The notes under the pieces: model-generated
What the model was told of the DNA's origin: nothing
The model's database searches: none
What the model saw: the letters and a program-made list of their open reading frames with translations, nothing else
Shown here: piece after piece, positions 1 to 15,935 of the stretch
Layout of the letters: each line of letters opens with the position of its first letter
Position numbering within the stretch: the stretch's first letter is position 1
Source of the DNA: an uncultured Opitutaceae bacterium
GTDB lineage: Bacteria > Verrucomicrobiota > Verrucomicrobiia > Opitutales > Opitutaceae
Direction: 5' to 3'
Length of the DNA stretch: 15,935 nt
Assembly (NCBI GenBank): GCA_937128785.1
Contig: CAKZMS010000391.1
Location: 1-15,935 of the forward strand
Position numbers and translations under genes: made by a program

Positions 1-1158
1 TTTGTCCCGTCGATGTTGGGGCTCTTTGTCGATGTGGCGGACCTGGCGCAGTGCACCTCGCTTCGCCGGATCATTTGTTCGGGCGAAGCCCTACCGGCCG
101 ATCTACCCGCCCGGCTTTTTTCCCGCCACCCCACCGTGGAACTCCACAATCTCTACGGGCCCACTGAAGCGGCGATCGATGTTTCCTACTGGGCCTGTCA
201 CCGTGATGCCGCCCCCAGACCTATTCCCATTGGTCGACCGGTCGCTCGCACGCAGCTCCACGTGTTAAACGAGGGCGGCGAACCGCAACCAATCGGCGTG
301 CCGGGAGAACTCCACATCGGCGGCGTTCAGTTAATGCGAGGCTACCACGGCCGCCCCGAACTCAACGCGGAGAAGCTGATCTCCGATCCCTTTGCCTCGA
401 CCGCTAACGCCCGCCTTTATCGCACCGGCGATCTGGTCAGCTGGCGCCCGGATGGCGCATTGGACTACCACGGCAGAATGGATGGCCAGGTGAAGCTCCG
501 CGGGTTCCGCATCGAACTCGGAGAAATTGAAACCGCGCTGGCGAACCGTGAAGGCATTCGGGAGGCCGTCGTTACGCTCCGGCAGGAGCCCGACCTCGAT
601 GCTCAATTGGTTGCTTATTTCATTCCCGAGCCGACGGAGACCGAGGAAATCAATATCCCCCATCTCCGGACTGAGCTGCGCCAGTTTTTGCCAGACTACA
701 TGGTGCCGGCGACATTCGTCCGCGTCGACGCGTGGCCGTTATCACCCAACGGCAAACGGGATCTCAAAGCGCTTCCGGACCCGCCTCGCGCCACCGATTC
801 GCCCGTCTCATCCAGCGCGCCGACCGCAACGGCTTCTCCCGTGGAAGCCAAATTGAGGGACCGTTGGGCCGAGCTGCTGGGTCATGCCACGTTCGGATTG
901 GACGACAACTTTTTTGATCTCGGCGGTCATTCACTTCACCTGGGCCGACTGCACGCCGAACTCCAAACCGCGGGGCATGCGGATCTCACTTTGGTGGAGT
1001 TGTTTCAATATCCGACCATCCGCACGCTCGCTCGCCGGTTGGACGGCACCAGCCCTGATCGCCCATCAATCCGCTCCAGCGCAGAAACCTCTTCCAGTCG
1101 TCCCGGCACCCTCGCCCATCAACGCGCCCAACGCCGCAAGGCCCGCAATCGCTCATGA
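1..1158 (+). CDS. NRPS, 3' part: adenylation domain (serine-type) and PCP
   Basis: This is the C-terminal end of a nonribosomal peptide synthetase whose 5' part lies before the window; the frame is open from base 1, so the ATG at 13 is internal. Codons 1 to about 262 are the second half of an A domain: A5 is LYGPTEAAIDVSYW, A7 YRTGDL, A8 GQVKLRGFRIELGEIE, A10 NGKRDLKAL with the adenylate-contacting Lys at codon 252. The visible specificity residues read I-S-L-I-D-K, matching the end of the known serine code DVWHISLIDK; the first four lie upstream, so serine is likely but unproven. A PCP follows at codons 281-352, with the phosphopantetheine Ser at codon 311 in DLGGHSLH. Its wording (HSLHLGRLHAEL, LVELFQYPTI) resembles carrier domains that precede a ketosynthase, which fits the next gene. 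The protein ends in an Arg/Ser/Pro-rich tail of about 30 residues. Its stop overlaps the next start (ATGA). Confidence 0.95.
   Translation, partial: FVPSMLGLFVDVADLAQCTSLRRIICSGEALPADLPARLFSRHPTVELHNLYGPTEAAIDVSYWACHRDAAPRPIPIGRPVARTQLHVLNEGGEPQPIGVPGELHIGGVQLMRGYHGRPELNAEKLISDPFASTANARLYRTGDLVSWRPDGALDYHGRMDGQVKLRGFRIELGEIETALANREGIREAVVTLRQEPDLDAQLVAYFIPEPTETEEINIPHLRTELRQFLPDYMVPATFVRVDAWPLSPNGKRDLKALPDPPRATDSPVSSSAPTATASPVEAKLRDRWAELLGHATFGLDDNFFDLGGHSLHLGRLHAELQTAGHADLTLVELFQYPTIRTLARRLDGTSPDRPSIRSSAETSSSRPGTLAHQRAQRRKARNRS
1155..1158 (+). promoter_or_regulatory. ATGA stop/start overlap
   Basis: The ATG of the PKS gene (1155-1157) overlaps the TGA of the upstream NRPS gene (1156-1158). 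No good Shine-Dalgarno sequence precedes it; the nearest is a weak AAGG about 13 bases upstream. The start probably depends on translational coupling, which would help keep the two partner proteins in step. Confidence 0.7.
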
Positions 1159-4100
1159 CTTCCCCACCACCCGTGCGTGAACAGGATGTAGCGGTAATCG
1201 GCATGGCTTGCCGACTACCGGGAGCGGAGAATGTGGATGCGTTCCTGAGCTTATTGCGCGAAGCCAGGGAAGGCCTCACTCATTTCAGCCGCGAGGAACT
1301 GTTGGCGGCCGGCGTGGCCGCCGAGCTGCTGGATCGTCCGGACTACGTTCGGACCAACGGCGTGCTGGCGCAGCCCGCCCGATTTGATGCCGCCTTCTTT
1401 GGCTACACGCCTCGCGAAGCCGAGCTCCTGGATGTTCAGCAACGGGTCTGGTTAGAGATCGTTTGGACCGCCATCGAACACGCGGGCTACGACCCGTCGG
1501 CGGTGCCGGGGCCGTGTGGTATCTTCGCCGGATCGGGACTCAATACCTACCTGCTCAATCAGCTTGCCGCCAATCCCGAGGTGGTGGAGTCGGCCGGTGG
1601 TTTCTCGGTGATGATCGCCAATGACAAAGATCACCTGGCCACCCGCGCCGCCTACAAACTCGATCTCCGGGGACCCGCGGTTGCCGTGCAAACCGCCTGC
1701 TCGACGTCACTGGTCGCCATTCACATGGCCACCCAGAGCATTCTCGCCGGGGAATGCGAAGTTGCCGTCGCCGGAGGCATTTCGCTGCGTGTGCCCCAAG
1801 AAACCGGCTACCTTTACCAGGAGGGCATGATTCTCTCACCCGACGGGCATTGTCGGGCGTTCGACGCAGCGGCCGCTGGCACCGTAGGCGGAAACGGCGC
1901 CGGCGCAGTCGTGTTGAAACGCGCGGAAGACGCCATCGCCGATGGCGATACCATTCATGCGGTCATCAGGGGATCCGCCATCAATAATGATGGAGCGGCC
2001 AAGGTCGGCTACACCGCCCCCGGACCGGATGGGCAGAGCACGGTCATCGCCGAAGCCCTGTCCGTGGCGGAAGTCTCCGCCCGCGACATCGGCTACGTCG
2101 AAGCCCACGGAACGGGCACAAAGATGGGTGACCCCATCGAGGTGGCCTCGCTCACCCAAGCGTTCCGTCACGACACCGAAGATTGCGGCTACTGCACGCT
2201 CGGAGCGGTCAAAACCAACGTGGGGCATCTGGATGCCGCGGCCGGCGTGGCCGGATTCATCAAGACCGTGCTCTCTCTGCGCGAAGCGATGCTCTTCCCC
2301 ACTCTGCACCAGCAGGAAGCCCCTCCTCAGATCGACTTCGCATCATCCCCTTTTCGCGTCTCCGGCACGTTGGCCCCCTGGTCGGCTAACGCGGGACAAC
2401 GCCGTCGGGCGGGCGTAAGTTCATTCGGCATCGGTGGAACCAACGCGCACGTGGTGCTGGAGGAACCTCCACCGGCTCCTGTCCCGCCGTCACGCGATGG
2501 CCCTGAACTCCTGATCGTGTCGGCGCGGACTCCCGAGGGACGTGACCAACTCGCCCGTGCTCTCAAGCAAGTGGACCCTAAAACCTCCCTGTCCGCCGCC
2601 GCTCGGACGTTGGCCCTGGGCCGCAAGTTCTTCGTCGAACGCTGCGCGATGGTCGGCGGGCGTTTTGAAGATCTTCGCCCCGTCGCTCAGGACTCCACTG
2701 ATCAAACACGCTCCACTGTTTTCCTGTTTCCCGGACAGGGTTCCCAGCTTCCGGGTATGACTGCCGGGCTTTATCGAGAGGATCCGGAGTTCAAACGATT
2801 GATCGATCAAGGAGCTGAAATGCTCATGCCGCATCTGGCCGGTAAAAATCTGCGTTCCCTGCTGCTCGCCGATTCCCACGACCGGGACGCGGCTGAGCAA
2901 CTCAAGCAGACCTCGATCACGCAGCCCGCGCTCTTTCTGGTCTGCCACGCGCTGGCCACCCGCCTGCAGGATCTCGGAGTCACTCCCGACGCCATGCTCG
3001 GGCACAGTATCGGTGAGTGGGTGGCCGCGAGTCTCGCCGGGGTCATGCCCTACGAGGAGGCCCTGCGGCTCGTCGCCCTGCGCGGTCGGCTGATGGAGGC
3101 CCAGCCTCCCGGCGTGATGGCTGCCATCGGCGCAGATGAAGCAACGGTCAGCACTGATCTACCGTCCGGGCTGGAAGTAGCCGCGGTGAACTCGCCGCAG
3201 CAGACCGTAATTTCCGGTGCGACTTCCCTCATCGATCAACACCTCGCTATCCTCGAGGCAAAGGGCATTACCGGCACGCGTCTGGCCACCTCTCACGCCT
3301 TTCATTCCGCCGCGATGCAACCAGCGGCCGATACGTTGGCTGAGGCCTTGGGCAGCGTGTCACTGCACGCGCCCCACCGCCGCTGGATCCCGGACGTAAC
3401 CGGCGATTGGCTACGACCCGAAGATGCGACGTCTCCCGACTACTGGGCTCAACAACTTCGGTCCCCGGTTCGCTTCGCCGATGGCATCAAAACCCTCCTG
3501 ACGCCGGGGCCTGCGCTCATGGTGGAGGTGGGACCGGGACGCACCGCGAGTAGCCTGGTTCGTCGACAAATCGATTGGACCGAAAACCATCGCAGCGTCG
3601 CCTCGCTCCCGACACCCATAACCGATGATAGCTTACTGCCGGCGGTCGGGGCGATCTGGTGCGCCGGTGGATCCGTCGATTGGGAAAAGCACTACAGCGA
3701 TCGCCCGCTTCCGCGCGTGCCGCTCCCGACCTATCCTTTTGCGGGAGCCGAATACTGGATCGAAGCTAAACCTGGTTCGCCGCCCACCAAGCCACCGCGC
3801 GCCGTGGACGACTGGATGCATTTGCCTTCCTGGCAGCGTTGCCCCGCACCTCAACCGGAGGGCGCGGTGTCCGACGCCACCTGGGCCGTCATCGGCGGTC
3901 CCTGCGATTGGCAACAGGCCGTCACATCGCGCTTAGACCAAGCGGGCGCCATCATGACCACTGATGCGACCGCCGCTCGATGGATCATCGATCTCCGGGG
4001 AATGAAATCGCCGGCTGATTTGATCGGTGGTTTTCTGGAGCTTCAACAAACCGTCCGGGAGCTTGCGGCGGATGATACTGATCCCCAACGACGACTGCTC

Positions 4101-6803
4101 GTGGTCACCACCGGCCTCGCGGCCCTAGCCGATGAGCAACCGGTAAATCCGTCCAAGTCTTTGCTGCTGGGCCCATGCCGGGTGCTGCCTCGAGAAGCTC
4201 CTCTTTGCGATTCGCGCTTGGTCGATCTGGTGACGGAACCACCCACGGAAGCCGCCGTAGAGTGTCTTGTGCGGGAGGCGATGAGTCCGGATTCCCATGG
4301 GGTTGTTTTGTGGCGGCACGGAAAACGTTGGGCCGAATCGCTCATCCCAGTTCCCCGTCAATCCGACCTACCTGCGGCCAAAGGCAACTGCACGCTGATC
4401 ACCGGCGGATTGGGCGGTCTGGGCGGCGAGATTGCGGCAGACGTGGCAGCGCAACCCAACCATCATCTCGTGCTCGTGGGCCGATCCAACGTCGACCAGC
4501 GAATCGAGTCTCGGCTGGTCGACCTGCGGGCCAAAGGCGCCACGGTCCAGTATGAGCAAACCGATATCACCGATGCCTCTCAGGTGGCAGCCCTGCATGA
4601 AAGACTAAGGCGCAAATCGTGCACGGTTACCCGTATCGTGCACGCCGCCGGCGTTCCCGCCAGTGGCAGCCTGCTGCGCTCCGATGCCTTCCGCGCCCAA
4701 GCCGTCCTGGCACCCAAGGTAAACGGGACGCGAGCCCTGTGGGCCACATTTGGATCCGAGCTCACTGAGGGGATGATTTTAATGTCATCGGTTTCCGCGC
4801 GGCTCGGCGAATTTGGTCAGTCCGATTACACCGCCGCCAATGCGTTCATGGATGCCTTTGCCACCATCCATCACACCGCAGCTCGACCGGTTGTCAGCCT
4901 GAGCTGGGATGGTTGGGACGAGGTGGGAATGGCTGCACGACTGGGCCAAGAGCCCGGGATGGCGGAGTGGCATGAAGCGCGACGTTTCCAATTGATCAAG
5001 CCGGCCGATGGAGTGGCCGCATTCCATGCCGCGCTGAGTTTTGGGGAGGCTCATGTGGTGATCGCAACGCATGCTCTTTCCGGACGGCAGGTTTCTCCGG
5101 CGGAGCAATCCGTACCGGTTTCGTCGGCAGGCTCATCCCATGAGCGCCCAGATCTGGTTACGCCGTTTGCAGCTCCAACTGAGCAAATTGAGATTCGCAT
5201 CGCTCAGATTTGGAGTGAACTGCTCGGGTTAAAAACGGTGGGGATCGACGATAGTTTCTTTGATCTGGGCGGGCACTCCCTTCTCGCCACGCAAGTGCTC
5301 GCGCGATTGCGGGAGCACGAATTGGGCGCCATCAACCTGGCCCAGTTTTTCGAAAACCCCACCGTTCGGGGCCTCGCTGAGTTGATGGAGTCGGCGGTGG
5401 ACCCGACCGCCGCACCGCCGCTCGAACCGGTGCCGCGCGAGAATGGCCTGGCCCCGTTATCGTTCGCTCAGGAATCCCTGTGGTTGCTTGATCGCATGGA
5501 AGGGTCGAGCGCCCACTACAACGAATGCGGTGTCCAGCGACTCCGCGGTCCCTTGGATCCGGCGAGACTCCGCGAAGCTCTCGGGCAAGTCATGGATCGA
5601 CACGAAATCCTCCGCACGCGCTTCGTCGAGATTGAGGGCACCGCTCAACAACAGATTGTTCCGGCGACCGAAATCGAATGGGACTTGCCGTTGCTGGATT
5701 GGTCGGATCGTCGGCCAGAAAACGAGACCGAGGATCTGGAGAACCTCACGGCGGAACTCAAAGCGGAATCGTTCGATCTGAGCCAAGCGCCGCTCCTGCG
5801 GGGACGATTGATTCGCTGGAGCGATAACCATCACGTGCTGACCATCGTAGTGCATCACATCGTATTCGATGGGTGGTCCTCCCGGAACTTCTTTGCCGAG
5901 ATGTTGGCCGCCTACCGCGGCGAGTCCCTGCCGCCGCTCCCGCTGCAGTATGCCGATTTCGCGCATTGGCAGCGCCAAGCCATCTCGCCCACTGAGCGGG
6001 CGCGGCTGGGATCTTATTGGCAGGAAACCTTCCGGCCGCTGCCTGCACCCTTGGCTTGGCCCCAAGGTCGAACCCGTCCGCCGCGGCAGACCTTTGCGGG
6101 GCAGTTCCATGGGTTCGAATTGGATACGGCTCTTTCGCAAAAGCTGACGGAGTTGGGACGCGAAACCGATGCCTCACCGTTTATGGTATTGCTGGCCGCT
6201 TATGCCGCCGTCTTGTCCCGCCACGCTGCCCAGGAAGAGGTGGTCATCGGCAGTCCGGTGGCTGGCCGGGATCAACGCGAACTGGAACCGTTGATCGGGT
6301 ATTTCGTAAATCCCCTGCCTCTACGCATCGATCTCAGAGAGAATCCCCATTTCACCGATCTCGTAGCCCGGACCCGGACGCAGGTTTTGGCGGCCTACGC
6401 CCATCAGTCACTGCCCTTCCAGCAAATCATCGAAGCCATCGCCCCACCGCGAGATCCCGCGCGTTCCGCGTTGTTCCAAACCATGCTAATCTTCCAAAAC
6501 CAGACCCCGGACCCAGAAACTCCCCCCGGGTTTACCTTGGAACCATGGCTGCCCCACACCGGCCCGGCTCGTTCGGATCTGGACTTCTATGTTTGGCAAA
6601 AATCGGAACGCCTGGAGGGCTACTTCCTCTTCAATTCAGACATTTTTGAGCGCGAAGAAATCAAACGCTTCAGCCTGCGACTGCAGACTTTTTTGAAATC
6701 GGCATTGGGCTCGCCCGATCAGCCCATCGCCGCCTTGAAATTTGACGAATCTTTTTCACTACCCGGCCTTGGCAGCCGTCGACGGCCTCCCTCAGGGTCT
6801 TAA
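1155..6803 (+). CDS. type I PKS with C-terminal condensation domain (KS-AT-KR-CP-C)
   Basis: This 1882-residue protein should extend the aminoacyl chain from the upstream PCP by one malonate unit and reduce it. KS, about 8-430, has Cys182 in TACSTS, His318 in EAHGTGT and His358 in NVGH. AT, about 521-830, has Ser618 in GHSIGEW and HAFHS (His717), the malonyl-CoA signature. A post-AT linker ends near 870 and the KR structural half follows. KR, about 1075-1260, has the NADPH loop TGGLGGLG from 1083 and a full tetrad Lys1188, Ser1212, Tyr1225, Asn1229, so a beta-hydroxyl is predicted. There is no room for DH, ER or methyltransferase. The carrier domain, about 1325-1400, has Ser1375 in DLGGHSLL. 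A C domain, about 1430-1865, has HHIVFDG (His1567, His1568, Asp1572, Gly1573) and IGYFVNPLPLR. The protein stops right after this C domain with a short tail containing SRRR and has no A domain; the next gene also opens with a C domain, which is unusual. Confidence 0.95.
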   Translation: MTSPPPVREQDVAVIGMACRLPGAENVDAFLSLLREAREGLTHFSREELLAAGVAAELLDRPDYVRTNGVLAQPARFDAAFFGYTPREAELLDVQQRVWLEIVWTAIEHAGYDPSAVPGPCGIFAGSGLNTYLLNQLAANPEVVESAGGFSVMIANDKDHLATRAAYKLDLRGPAVAVQTACSTSLVAIHMATQSILAGECEVAVAGGISLRVPQETGYLYQEGMILSPDGHCRAFDAAAAGTVGGNGAGAVVLKRAEDAIADGDTIHAVIRGSAINNDGAAKVGYTAPGPDGQSTVIAEALSVAEVSARDIGYVEAHGTGTKMGDPIEVASLTQAFRHDTEDCGYCTLGAVKTNVGHLDAAAGVAGFIKTVLSLREAMLFPTLHQQEAPPQIDFASSPFRVSGTLAPWSANAGQRRRAGVSSFGIGGTNAHVVLEEPPPAPVPPSRDGPELLIVSARTPEGRDQLARALKQVDPKTSLSAAARTLALGRKFFVERCAMVGGRFEDLRPVAQDSTDQTRSTVFLFPGQGSQLPGMTAGLYREDPEFKRLIDQGAEMLMPHLAGKNLRSLLLADSHDRDAAEQLKQTSITQPALFLVCHALATRLQDLGVTPDAMLGHSIGEWVAASLAGVMPYEEALRLVALRGRLMEAQPPGVMAAIGADEATVSTDLPSGLEVAAVNSPQQTVISGATSLIDQHLAILEAKGITGTRLATSHAFHSAAMQPAADTLAEALGSVSLHAPHRRWIPDVTGDWLRPEDATSPDYWAQQLRSPVRFADGIKTLLTPGPALMVEVGPGRTASSLVRRQIDWTENHRSVASLPTPITDDSLLPAVGAIWCAGGSVDWEKHYSDRPLPRVPLPTYPFAGAEYWIEAKPGSPPTKPPRAVDDWMHLPSWQRCPAPQPEGAVSDATWAVIGGPCDWQQAVTSRLDQAGAIMTTDATAARWIIDLRGMKSPADLIGGFLELQQTVRELAADDTDPQRRLLVVTTGLAALADEQPVNPSKSLLLGPCRVLPREAPLCDSRLVDLVTEPPTEAAVECLVREAMSPDSHGVVLWRHGKRWAESLIPVPRQSDLPAAKGNCTLITGGLGGLGGEIAADVAAQPNHHLVLVGRSNVDQRIESRLVDLRAKGATVQYEQTDITDASQVAALHERLRRKSCTVTRIVHAAGVPASGSLLRSDAFRAQAVLAPKVNGTRALWATFGSELTEGMILMSSVSARLGEFGQSDYTAANAFMDAFATIHHTAARPVVSLSWDGWDEVGMAARLGQEPGMAEWHEARRFQLIKPADGVAAFHAALSFGEAHVVIATHALSGRQVSPAEQSVPVSSAGSSHERPDLVTPFAAPTEQIEIRIAQIWSELLGLKTVGIDDSFFDLGGHSLLATQVLARLREHELGAINLAQFFENPTVRGLAELMESAVDPTAAPPLEPVPRENGLAPLSFAQESLWLLDRMEGSSAHYNECGVQRLRGPLDPARLREALGQVMDRHEILRTRFVEIEGTAQQQIVPATEIEWDLPLLDWSDRRPENETEDLENLTAELKAESFDLSQAPLLRGRLIRWSDNHHVLTIVVHHIVFDGWSSRNFFAEMLAAYRGESLPPLPLQYADFAHWQRQAISPTERARLGSYWQETFRPLPAPLAWPQGRTRPPRQTFAGQFHGFELDTALSQKLTELGRETDASPFMVLLAAYAAVLSRHAAQEEVVIGSPVAGRDQRELEPLIGYFVNPLPLRIDLRENPHFTDLVARTRTQVLAAYAHQSLPFQQIIEAIAPPRDPARSALFQTMLIFQNQTPDPETPPGFTLEPWLPHTGPARSDLDFYVWQKSERLEGYFLFNSDIFEREEIKRFSLRLQTFLKSALGSPDQPIAALKFDESFSLPGLGSRRRPPSGS

Positions 6804-8170
6804 TTCGCCTCAGTTGTATGGAGCCCTCCCTATCACCTCACCAAGAACGACTTTGGTTTATCGACCACTTTGAGCGGGGTCATGTCTACCCGCATCCGCC
6901 CGTCTACCATAATCTCCCGCTGGTGTTGGCTGGAGAGGGTTTATTGGGAGCCTCCATGGCGGAGTCCGTGTTGGCCGATTTGGTGGCCCGGCACGAGGTA
7001 TTGCGCACTCAATTCGAGGAGGATGGAGTTCCCGCCGTTCCCGTGATTCGAGACCAGGTGCAACCGCTCTGTGCAACCGTCGAACTGCCCGCCGGAGCCT
7101 CGGAAAACGACGTCGTGAACGCACTCATCGCCGCCAACGCGATACCATTCACCTTGGACCAAGATCCGCTGATACGGGCCAAGGTGTTTCGCATCGCCGG
7201 CGAGCCGGCAACCGGACGCTTCTGGTGGTTGATCACGGTGCACCACCTTGTCGCTGATCAACGTTCCCTGGAACTGCTGGCCGCCGAAATCGCCGCCACC
7301 TTGCGGGGTGAAAATGTGACCCCGCCCGACATCCACTATCCCGATTACGTGGCATGGCAGCGGGACCTGCCGAAACAGGTCTGGGAGCCCCAGCAGTTTT
7401 ATTGGAAGTGGCAGTTGCGCGGACGCCTTTCTCCGCTCGAGCTTCCCACCGCCCGACCGCGCCAGGCGGTGCATGTGTTCGCTCCCGCCCGTCACACCTT
7501 TCGATGGAATAAGCCGGTGGTGGACGCAGTGCGCTCCCTGGCGCGGGAAAGCGAGACGTCTCCCGTTGCGGTCTCGCTCGCCGTATTCAAGCTCTTGTTG
7601 CACCGTTATGCGCAACAAGCTGAAATCGTCATCGGCACGCGAGCGGACAACCGCCGTCAAGAGGGGACCGAATCGGTAATCGGCCCCGTTTCCAATCTGG
7701 TGGTGCTGCGTAGCACCTTGAGCGGTGACATGTTGCTGGCGGATTTGATCGCTCAGACCTCCCGAATCCACCGCGAGGCATGCGATCACCAAGAGATGCC
7801 GTTCGATTCCCTCGTGCAGGTGCTCAACCCCGCCAAGGACATGAGCCGCACCGCCCTGTTTGATGTATTGGCCACGGTGCAGGAAACGCCCGCGCCCGAG
7901 TTGGATGGCGGTGCGGTCGGCCCGCTTCACCGGGTCGACCTCAATCTGGGGCATGGCAAATACGACCTCGCGCTTCATCTGGAGTTCACCCGGGAAGACG
8001 AGGTCGCCGGAACCCTGACTTACAATTCGACGCTGCATGATGAGCCATTCGTCGCGCAACTGAGCCGCCACTTCACTGCGCTCGTAGAAACGGCCCCGCA
8101 GCATCAGCAGACTCCCATCGCCGACATACCGTTGCTCACGACCGCAGAGGAAGCTCAGCAACTCTCCTAC
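5430..8170 (+). other. back-to-back condensation domains split across two genes
   Basis: The C domain ending the PKS protein (about 5430-6760) is followed, after a stop codon and 14 bases, by the C domain that opens the next protein (about 6830-8170). No adenylation or carrier domain lies between them. The first has an intact HHIVFDG. The second has HHLVADQ, keeping the second His (143) and Asp (147) but with Gln148 in place of Gly, and its usual FVNTLPLR segment reads GPVSNLVVLR. Both keep RHE(I/V)LRT and the MPF/LPF segment. One peptide bond to Thr needs only one C domain, so the other has a different, structural or lost role. Confidence 0.85.
6804..6817 (+). other. 14-base gap between PKS and Thr NRPS genes
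   Basis: This is the only non-coding stretch in the window. It has no purine-rich ribosome binding site, no hairpin and no recognisable promoter. The short gap argues that both genes lie on one transcript. Confidence 0.75.
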
Positions 8171-10053
8171 TTCAACGATACCGCGGCGGAAGCTCCGCGG
8201 GAACACACGTTGGTAAACCGTTTGGAGCGACAAGTTGACCGGGCTCCGGATCGTGTCGCCGTGCAGGGGGGAGAGGTCGAACTGACCTACGCCGAACTCG
8301 ATCACCGGGCCAATCAGTTGGCTCGCCGTTTGATTGGGCAAGGGGTCACGACGGACACCCTCGTAGCCGTCGCCCTGCCGCGGTCTGCCGAGTTGGTAGT
8401 CGCACTGCTCGCCGTGCTGAAAAGCGGCGGCGCCTACCTGCCGCTGGATCCTCATCACCCCGTCGATCGCATTCGCTTCACGCTGGAGGATTCCGGGGTC
8501 GGTCATCTTGTGAGTCGCACGGGAGTTCTACCCGACTCGGCGCTACCGGCGACTGTCTCCCAATTCTCCCTGCTCGACTGCGATGCAGCGGAGATTGCCG
8601 CAGAGGATACTGGCCGTCCCGCGGTGACCACGCGGCCGGGGAATCTCGCTTATTGCATCTATACCTCGGGGTCCACGGGACGACCCAAGGGTGTCCTGAT
8701 CGAACACCGTCAGGTGGTGCGCCTGATGGAGACCGACCGGAGCCCCTTCGACTTTGGATCAGATGACGTCTGGTCCCTGTTCCATTCCACCTGTTTCGAT
8801 TTTTCGGTCTGGGAAATGTATGGTGCCCTGCTGTTTGGCGGGAAGCTGATAGTATTGGCCTCGGAAACTACCCGCGATCCCGAACAATTCGCTGCCCAAC
8901 TGCTGACTGACAAGATCACGGTATTGAACCAGACGCCGAGTGCATTTCGCCAAGTGGACGAAGCCTTGGCCCGGCGAGGCTACCCGGCCTTGGCTTTGCG
9001 CCAGGTGATTTTCGGTGGCGAAGCCCTAGCTCCGCTACATCTCAAGAGATTCGCTGAGGCCTACCCTCACATCGCCTTGATCAATATGTATGGCATCACC
9101 GAAACCACGGTCCATGTCACCCACCACCGGATCACCGATGACGACATCACCCTCAATCGCCCCATCATCGGTCGACCGTTGCCCACCACCACCACGCTGG
9201 TGCTGGATTCGCAGCAGCGGCTTTTACCTTTGGGGGTGGCCGGAGAAATTTGTATCGGCGGCGAAGGCCTCGCTCGTGGTTACCTGAACCGGCCCGAGCT
9301 CACCCGCGAAAAGTTTATCGACCATCCCTATCAAACGGGAGCGCGGCTCTACCGTTCCGGCGATCGAGGTGCCCTGCAACCGAACGGCAATCTGCACCAT
9401 CTCGGCCGCATGGACGACCAAGTCCAGGTGCGCGGGTTCCGCGTCGAGCTTGGCGAGATCCGGACCTGTCTGCTGCGGCATTCCGTCGTGACTGAAGCCG
9501 AGGTCGTCGCCCGAGAAACCCCGGATCAAGGTCCCCTATTGACCGCCTACCTCGTGACGGAACGTCCTACCGAAACCGCCGAACTCCGCGCCCACGCCGG
9601 TGAGACCCTGCCCGACTACATGATCCCCCATGCCTTCGTGCCGATGAACGCCCTGCCCTTGACCGCCAACGGCAAAGTGGATCGTAAAGCCTTGCCTGAT
9701 CCGGCCGAAGCCGAGCGGGCAGCCGGCATCGAATATTCCGCTCCGATCAACGAGGTGGAGACATTTCTGGCCCGTAATTATGCCAAGTTGTTGTCGGCGG
9801 AAGAGGTGGGCCGGGATCATCATTTCTTCGAATTGGGTGGGCACTCTCTCTTGGCGGCCCAATTGGTCTCCCGGCTCCGTGAAGAGTATCAGATCGAACT
9901 TCCCCTGAAGCACGTTTTCTCCTCTCCCACCGTGGCCGCCCTGGCCGAGGTCATCGCCCGTCTCCGCACCGATTCTCCCGCCCTCCCGGCTTCTGATATG
10001 ATCCCACGCGCCGCGCGCCGCCCGGCTGCCAGTCTGTCATCACCTGAAAAACT

Positions 10054-10057
<4 letters not shown>
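6818..10057 (+). CDS. NRPS module C-A(Thr)-PCP
   Basis: This 1079-residue protein is one elongation module. The C domain spans about 1-445; its first motif, SPHQERLWFIDHF, begins at residue 5, so there is no N-terminal docking extension and a later start would cut the domain. The active-site motif is HHLVADQ (His142, His143, Asp147, Gln148), with Gln for the usual Gly. The A domain spans about 455-960: A3 YTSGSTGRPKG near 616, A5 NMYGITETTVH, A8 GQ-type VQVRGFRVELGEI, and Lys953 in NGKVDRKAL. Aligned to gramicidin synthetase PheA, the pocket reads D661 F662 W665 N704 I731 G733 M757 V765 H766 K953, or DFWNIGMVHK, exactly the established threonine code. The PCP spans about 978-1045, with Ser1010 in ELGGHSLL. 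It ends in a Pro/Ser/Arg tail. No epimerase is present, so L-Thr should be passed on. The stop overlaps the next start (GTGA). Odd point: the tandem C arrangement with the preceding protein. Confidence 0.95.

Positions 10058-15935
<5,878 letters not shown>

Follow-up and report, generated by a model that had tools for sequence, protein, structure and literature searches.

Tandem condensation domains at an Opitutaceae NRPS-PKS locus: a threonine-associated domain subtype with a predicted modifying role

The stretch of DNA analysed here, called the window, comprises 15,935 nt of contig CAKZMS010000391.1 from an uncultured Opitutaceae bacterium (assembly GCA_937128785.1). Pfam domain calls on its open reading frames (ORFs) describe a hybrid stretch of non-ribosomal peptide synthetase (NRPS) and polyketide synthase (PKS) genes (Table 1). 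The PKS protein closes with a condensation (C) domain, C1, and the next protein opens with another one, here designated C*, followed by an adenylation (A) domain and a peptidyl carrier protein (PCP). An earlier note on this DNA had pointed to these two domains, split over two proteins, with HHIVFDG in the first, HHLVADQ in the second and no A-PCP in between; Pfam matches and motif coordinates agree with that description. The stop of the PKS gene (6803) and the next start (6818) leave 14 nt between them, and the frames differ. No DH domain is among the Pfam matches of the donor PKS module, which would pass a beta-hydroxyacyl chain to C1. Residue names were assigned directly from Stachelhaus codes; on this basis the A domain behind C* has a Thr code, and the equivalent of the upstream A-PCP has a Ser-type code in three related genomes (G003, G064 and G111, see below). 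The C domain that opens the third protein is of the ordinary L-type and may move the Thr-ended chain to the following module.

Table 1. Features of the window, with the two loci outside it that are referred to by position
Feature	Position	Strand	Basis
End of upstream NRPS module, A-PCP, truncated by contig end	1..1158	+	Pfam
PKS protein, KS-AT-KR-PP-Condensation	1155-6803	+	Pfam
Donor PKS module KS-AT-KR-ACP	1155..5447	+	Pfam
C1, terminal condensation domain of PKS protein	5448..6740	+	Pfam, motifs
HHIVFDG of C1	5853-5873	+	
IGYFVNPLPLR of C1	6294-6326	+	
PKS protein C-terminal tail and 14-nt gap	6741..6817	+	
Second protein, Condensation-AMP-PP	6818-10057	+	Pfam
C*, second condensation domain	6818..8161	+	Pfam, motifs
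HHLVADQ of C*	7241-7261	+	
IGPVSNLVVLR of C*	7679-7711	+	
LGHGKYDL of C*	7946-7969	+	
Adenylation domain after C*, code DFWNIGMVH	8222..9676	+	Pfam; Thr by Stachelhaus codes
PCP of the C* module, putative substrate carrier of C*	9794..9955	+	Pfam
Third protein, C-A-PCP-C-A, truncated by contig end	10054 onward	+	
Next C domain, ordinary L-type	10096..11406	+	Tree, motifs
Free-standing C* in G447:C16 (L103-L105), joined-strand coordinates	17382-18647		
NRPS cluster with tandem C domains in module 5	L094:14036-43859		A codes, TE, TauD

A family search over 200 genomes found close relatives of C*, at 49-68% identity, in four other Opitutaceae genomes (G003, G064, G087 and G111, beside G000, which holds the window as G000:C391). 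As far as the contigs reach, all five share the order KS-AT-KR-ACP-C1 // C*-A-PCP, with the double slash as the gene boundary. The G087 contig starts inside the AT domain, and in contig G111:C32 (L006), part of a metagenome-assembled genome (MAG), the PKS gene 5' of C1 is split into several frames. Stop and start overlap as ATGA in G003 and G087 and are 12-14 nt apart in G064, G111 and the window. The same boundary, with gaps of 129-182 nt, follows an NRPS module in three Flavobacteriaceae loci (Aquimarina L007 and L008, Dokdonia L009). It is kept in eight out of the nine loci read upstream of a protein-initial C*, the window included, as had to be looked for according to the earlier note. In the ninth, G447, C* is a free-standing protein of 421 aa, located between a protein that ends in an E-like domain (HHLAVDGVS) and a complete C-A(Thr)-PCP-C. 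Near C*, the NRPS genes of one Aquimarina locus (L007:12477-13223) and of Dokdonia (L009:3516-4262) have a gene of the Asp/Glu racemase family (PF01177) between them.

Two C domains without an A-PCP between them resemble a skipped module, and it had been considered that an A-PCP was deleted here or acts from elsewhere. No A-PCP lies between the two domains in any of the eight loci, two of which belong to single-contig genomes (G003 and G064). Furthermore, 49 C* domains directly follow another C domain within one chain, and the 34 linkers that were measured have only 14-29 aa. Because of this conserved boundary and the fused tandems, deletion of an A-PCP and a trans-acting A-PCP were rejected, and the whole explanation, assembly collapse included, is hardly credible. 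The approximately 80 kb around the G003 and G064 clusters offer no spare A-PCP: apart from a loading unit, the sole C-less A-PCP protein stands at the terminus, and its C domain ends the preceding protein (a search for a trans-acting A-PCP was not extended to the remainder of these genomes). In G064 this terminal protein also carries a methyltransferase and a TE domain. Both clusters (G064:C1, G003:C1) form a long PKS-NRPS line, of which about 67-70 kb were seen and which ends in the C // A-PCP protein; a class-III aminotransferase gene adjoins the line in both, and in G064 also one for a phosphopantetheinyl transferase (PPTase).

Three protein searches gave 324, 1089 and 392 matches, and the best 120 of each were read, some proteins twice. 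Position was assessed for 112 distinct C* domains, among which a few of the Opitutaceae ones were counted two times, once from the genome and once from the protein database. The 49 that follow another C domain in the same chain include 15 cut or short cases, and none follows an E domain; the other 63 stand first in a protein or fragment. Since some of these begin with a C-domain tail or a docking-like stretch, part of the 63 may be mis-started tandems. Not a single one of the 112 comes after a PCP, a position held by 265 of the 494 remaining non-E domains. A C domain precedes C* without exception (21/21) in a further 21 long synthetases, and the gene split of the window falls in the same stretch as the fused linkers. 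The tandem also follows ordinary NRPS modules, and the G003 and G064 clusters each have another PKS-to-Thr junction with a single C domain; therefore, a polyketide donor is not the key to the tandem. The near-constant partner of C* is a Thr module. C-C pairs in which neither domain was called as C* are found in P0069 and in P0173, P0176 and P0188, the motifs of the last three being unreadable.

A FastTree phylogeny covers 636 C domains, taken from the first two protein searches, from the clovibactin proteins and from the clusters retrieved. Of the 110 domains with a GPxxN signature it unites 107 in a single clade with 114 members (support 0.94); three signature domains fall outside, and seven members lack the exact pattern. 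With 105 labelled domains, IQ-TREE found all 29 sampled C* monophyletic (ultrafast bootstrap, UFBoot, 100), grouped with L-type domains (support 75) and apart from E domains and from the group of DCL, dual and post-Dhb domains (support 100). Unlike C*, which forms a single clade, C1 domains occur scattered among the L-type domains in the trees. In these phylogenies C* is a separate monophyletic subtype within the L-type; we know of no existing name for this branch. The earlier suggestion that the two domains have diverged in role is borne out: C1 is an ordinary L-type domain and C* falls within the L-type but in its own clade, so that they are not both ordinary LCL domains.

The source names in the C* clade include Opitutaceae, Chitinophaga, Pyrinomonadaceae, Herpetosiphonaceae, Ktedonobacteraceae, Pseudomonas, Lysobacter and Nitrospira, and those of the C* proteins point to at least six phyla. 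Single phyla were also searched, scoring at most four candidates per genome. With the C* of L007 as query, 2 of 395 Bacteroidota genomes matched at E 1e-70, namely that of Aquimarina itself and G447. A Chitinophaga C* recovered this pair again at 1e-50, and 3 of 387 Verrucomicrobiota genomes matched at 1e-68, the own genome counted. Among plasmids a single record, from Eleftheria terrae, has C* at E 1e-60; the other four of the five plasmid loci read are without it. In two matched Streptomyces loci the match is an ordinary C domain following a PCP. In P0086, P0087, P0089, P0100 and P0105, proteins with an FkbM-type methyltransferase (PF05050), C domains with a GP signature precede Thr-type codes; there the residue following HHxxxD is Thr or Ala where read.

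Comparison of 114 C* with 465 other L-type domains shows what is kept in the active site and what has changed. The catalytic residues are retained (H142 1.00, H143 0.96, D147 1.00). The Gly after D147 is replaced by Arg, Lys or Gln in 96% of the clade, and the C5 motif reads GPxxNL. Gained residues are His8 (0.99), His31 (0.98), His219 (0.96), Gly380 (1.00) and Asn376 (0.92), and Arg/Lys148 and Pro290 are also near-invariant. The window domain bears His8, His31, His219, Pro290 and Gly380 (protein numbering) and thereby, together with its Thr A domain and adjoining C domain, all features by which we propose to recognise the subtype (HHxxxD[RKQ], GPxxNL, His8, His31, His219). From a canonical LCL domain it departs by HHLVADQ in place of HHxxxDG and by the missing donor carrier. 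It has neither the VGWFT motif or HHxxxDH of E and dual C/E domains nor their place in the trees, and the DxxxxD of Cy domains is absent from both window domains. An AlphaFold model of the window C* (predicted local distance difference test, pLDDT, 92.9) has the C-domain fold and is nearest to Txo2, Txo1 and TycC, the LCL domains that are also its best matches in the PDB by sequence; a C-C* didomain model (P0065) reached a pLDDT of 83.9. The C5-C6 region is located at the donor-carrier interface in a passage of PMC10212144. C1 has both canonical elements, HHxxxDG (as HHIVFDGWS in all five Opitutaceae) and a C5 motif of the GFFVNxLxLR type. With IGYFVNPLPLR present and the E-type VGWFT absent, it is a genuine condensation domain rather than an epimerase, and it would form the amide bond to Thr.

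A Thr code was found in 97 of 101 readable A domains after C*, versus 40 of 300 after other C domains (Fisher 1e-54), a contrast inflated by shared descent because the 101 codes come from homologues similar to the window C*, with a few Opitutaceae counted twice. In the 21 long proteins C* precedes Thr in 17 cases and Asn in four; eleven further Thr modules, all in the Pseudomonas set, are without it, and in G003 and G064 only one of the three Thr modules of each line has C*. Judged from these lines, C* is not needed for the incorporation of Thr as such. The most frequent Thr code, DFWNIGMVH, is the same with and without C* (77/99 and 32/40). The A domain thus probably loads plain L-Thr.

Three lines could be matched to known products. 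On a plasmid from Eleftheria terrae P9846-PB (L094) the order is Phe-Leu-Lys-Ser-[C1-C*]Asn-Ala-Leu-Leu-TE, and a TauD gene lies close by. This fits clovibactin, an eight-residue depsipeptide whose hydroxyasparagine has the (2R,3R) configuration. If the alpha-epimerisation that the next dual-type domain should bring about is undone, this residue would be (2S,3R), hence erythro and the counterpart of allo-Thr. Protein P0234, with Ile-[C1-C*]Thr-Gly-Asn-Ser and two TE domains, fits modules 7-11 of lysobactin with C* at residue 8, which is L-allo-Thr; residue 10, threo-hydroxy-Asn, has no C*. In the syringomycin group, residue 6 is L-allo-Thr in pseudomycin, syringotoxin and cormycin, and strain 11K1 is P. 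viciae. P0270, named Pseudomonas viciae, and ten similar proteins, mostly named Pseudomonas, read [C1-C*]Thr-Thr-Asp-(C-T-TE) and fit brasmycin Thr6-Thr7-Asp8-(Thr9, no A) with C* at Thr6. The module order for this match was taken from passages of PMC6433849, which describe each brasmycin module as A, T, C. The three anchors share an allo or erythro residue at C*, a correlation of three.

A fourth line gives only a hint. PMC12077216 describes jagaricin with N-Me-L-allo-Thr, with histidine in last place and with one additional C domain in module 1. The Janthinobacterium protein P0121 has the order C-C*-A(Thr)-T-C-A(His-type code), and its assignment to jagaricin is no firmer because a methyltransferase stretch is missing. 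We also considered C* as a marker of the residue that closes a macrolactone, after clovibactin and Thr2 of chitinopeptin, and dropped this idea. The lactone of the syringomycin group is located elsewhere, residue 6 not being the lactone residue. The chitinopeptin Thr is D-allo-Thr (passage of PMC9248904), which is the outcome of L-Thr plus alpha-epimerisation, and no tie of the C. eiseniae C* fragments P0104 and P0108 to the chitinopeptin cluster was established. Literature passages on threonine-tagged lipopeptides or laxaphycin mention no C-C tandem.

The sequences establish a monophyletic subtype, its association with Thr, the tandem arrangement and the retention of the active-site motif. 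From this we infer a division of labour within the module C1 // C*-A(Thr)-PCP. C1 would join the beta-hydroxyacyl-ACP chain to Thr by an amide, while C* would take no donor from the upstream carrier and would work on the beta-hydroxy residue held by the PCP of its own module, where its most probable effect is to bring the beta carbon into the allo (erythro) configuration and so to turn L-Thr into L-allo-Thr. We give this reading a probability of roughly 0.45. A modifying role on the own PCP fits best because C1 is complete and C* keeps the dyad without the usual C5 motif and is dispensable for Thr entry. Of the options in the earlier note, that of one C domain being a modifying one is thus the best supported, with the activity of C* itself predicted from sequence. 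The free-standing C* of G447 beside a complete C-A(Thr) module also argues for it. With respect to the reaction, inversion at C-beta is favoured, since no other change suits the three anchors together: somewhat more tentatively, C* may be a C-beta epimerase that makes L-allo-Thr on-line by inverting carrier-bound Thr (and 3-hydroxy-Asn). Water might be lost and re-added with the help of the retained HHxxxD dyad and the extra histidines.

Several points weigh against this interpretation. We know of no C-fold enzyme that inverts a beta carbon, and the epimerase activity of C* is a prediction. The configurations used for the anchors are background statements, and that of brasmycin is carried over from pseudomycin, syringotoxin and cormycin. 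Besides its inflation by descent, the Thr association has exceptions: four of the 101 codes are not for Thr (P0046, P0085, P0092, P0125), and the clovibactin-type lines (4 of the 21 long proteins) carry Asn. Since a TauD gene accompanies the Asn module in the one clovibactin-type cluster read, the erythro configuration there might be due to the hydroxylase by itself. Finally, C1 is not always canonical. Its motif is DGWS in 20 of 34 fused tandems, in the Flavobacteriaceae it departs from HHxxxDG (HHIIGDFSS or HHIIGDYTS), and three Bacteroidota-type proteins (P0090, P0101, P0104) start with merely a degraded C-terminal C-lobe before C*, so that C* may condense in these. Such irregularities, together with the HHxxxD kept in C*, would suit reversed roles, C* condensing and C1 being a modifying or vestigial domain. 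As a general explanation this is very improbable, considering the DGWS in 20 of 34 tandems and the HHIVFDGWS of the Opitutaceae, the loss of the common C5 motif and of the Gly after D in C*, the spread of C1 over the trees in contrast to the one C* clade, and the complete C-A(Thr) that is left behind where C* stands free.

Alternatively, C* could be an allo-selective gate: L-allo-Thr would be made elsewhere, the A domain would load both isomers and only the allo form (or erythro hydroxy-Asn) would be passed on. This accounts for the anchors equally well, and acceptor-side gating by C domains is established. However, C1 of the window already is an intact condensation domain, and in G447 C* is apart from a complete C-A(Thr) module. 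No evident gene for the supply of allo-Thr was seen in a Pfam scan of seven ORFs flanking the two complete Opitutaceae clusters, although no dedicated search was made. We regard a gate as rather unlikely. The earlier note had also thought of a platform, and C* might, similar to an interface or X domain, dock a trans-acting tailoring enzyme, for instance a TauD-type beta-hydroxylase. The clovibactin-type line, pairing C* at the Asn module with a TauD gene in the cluster, fits this proposal, and in both Aquimarina genomes a TauD gene is found some 14 kb away from C*. In antiSMASH 8 (passage of PMC12230676) siderophore beta-hydroxylases as well as interface domains were given profiles. But there is no TauD match (PF02668) at E 0.001 in G000, G003, G064, G087 and G111, of which G000 and G087 are only 82 and 72% complete, and the only TauD of Dokdonia lies on another contig. 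Moreover, Thr requires no beta-hydroxylation, and HHxxxD kept at 96-100% is unusual for a pure platform. Recruitment of a hydroxylase is thus weakened, not eliminated, by the missing TauD genes, and a platform function appears unlikely.

Being conserved and recognisable, the subtype would allow genome miners to predict from the sequence which Thr is special and probably an allo-Thr. One small protein now also suffices to test where the L-allo-Thr of several antibiotic families originates. A C-beta epimerase would mean a new reaction for a domain family widely used in peptide engineering, and would make C* the source of allo-Thr in lysobactin, the syringomycin group and many unexplored clusters.

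The literature passages considered, tandem or additional C domains being among the subjects searched, contain no description of the C* subtype; the papers on the lysobactin cluster (Hou 2011) and the interface domain (Reitz 2019), in which an extra C domain may already have been noted, lie outside this scope. With LCL domains such as Txo2, Txo1 and TycC it shares the fold and HHxxxD, and differs from them by Arg, Lys or Gln for Gly (96%), GPxxNL, the new His8, His31 and His219 and its position, never after a PCP. The interface domain of siderophore NRPS, reportedly described by Reitz in 2019, is likewise an extra C-family domain in a module with a beta-hydroxyl residue; C* is mostly found at Thr and not Asp, and no TauD was found in five Opitutaceae genomes. 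CmodAA domains (AmbE-C2, AlbB-C3) resemble C* as C-family domains acting on a beta-hydroxy residue, and C* could accordingly be thought to dehydrate Thr, or else to esterify its hydroxyl; the residues at C* do bear a beta-hydroxyl or come to bear one (clovibactin). Yet the characterised domains dehydrate Ser/Thr on the upstream carrier (passages of PMC10880069), whereas C*, judged by position, precedes its own Thr module, the donor before it being a polyketide in the window but an NRPS module at other loci. In the trees, which hold no certified CmodAA sequence, C* groups with the L-type (support 75) and away from the D-type group with the two post-Dhb domains. The brasmycin-type Thr7, which is Dhb in syringomycin, is without C*, and at E 1e-3 the PDB matches of C1 include AmbE and those of C* do not, which is weak evidence. 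An ester is at odds with residue 6, which is not the lactone residue of the syringomycin group. Dehydration or esterification is therefore quite improbable. VibF also has two C-family domains with split roles before a Thr A domain, as a Cy-Cy-A(Thr) tandem; the Cy motif DxxxxD is absent from C1 and C* of the window, both of which have HHxxxD. The X domain of glycopeptide synthetases is another member of the C family and among the structural matches of the C* model, but it is terminal and recruits P450 enzymes, whereas C* keeps both histidines of the motif.

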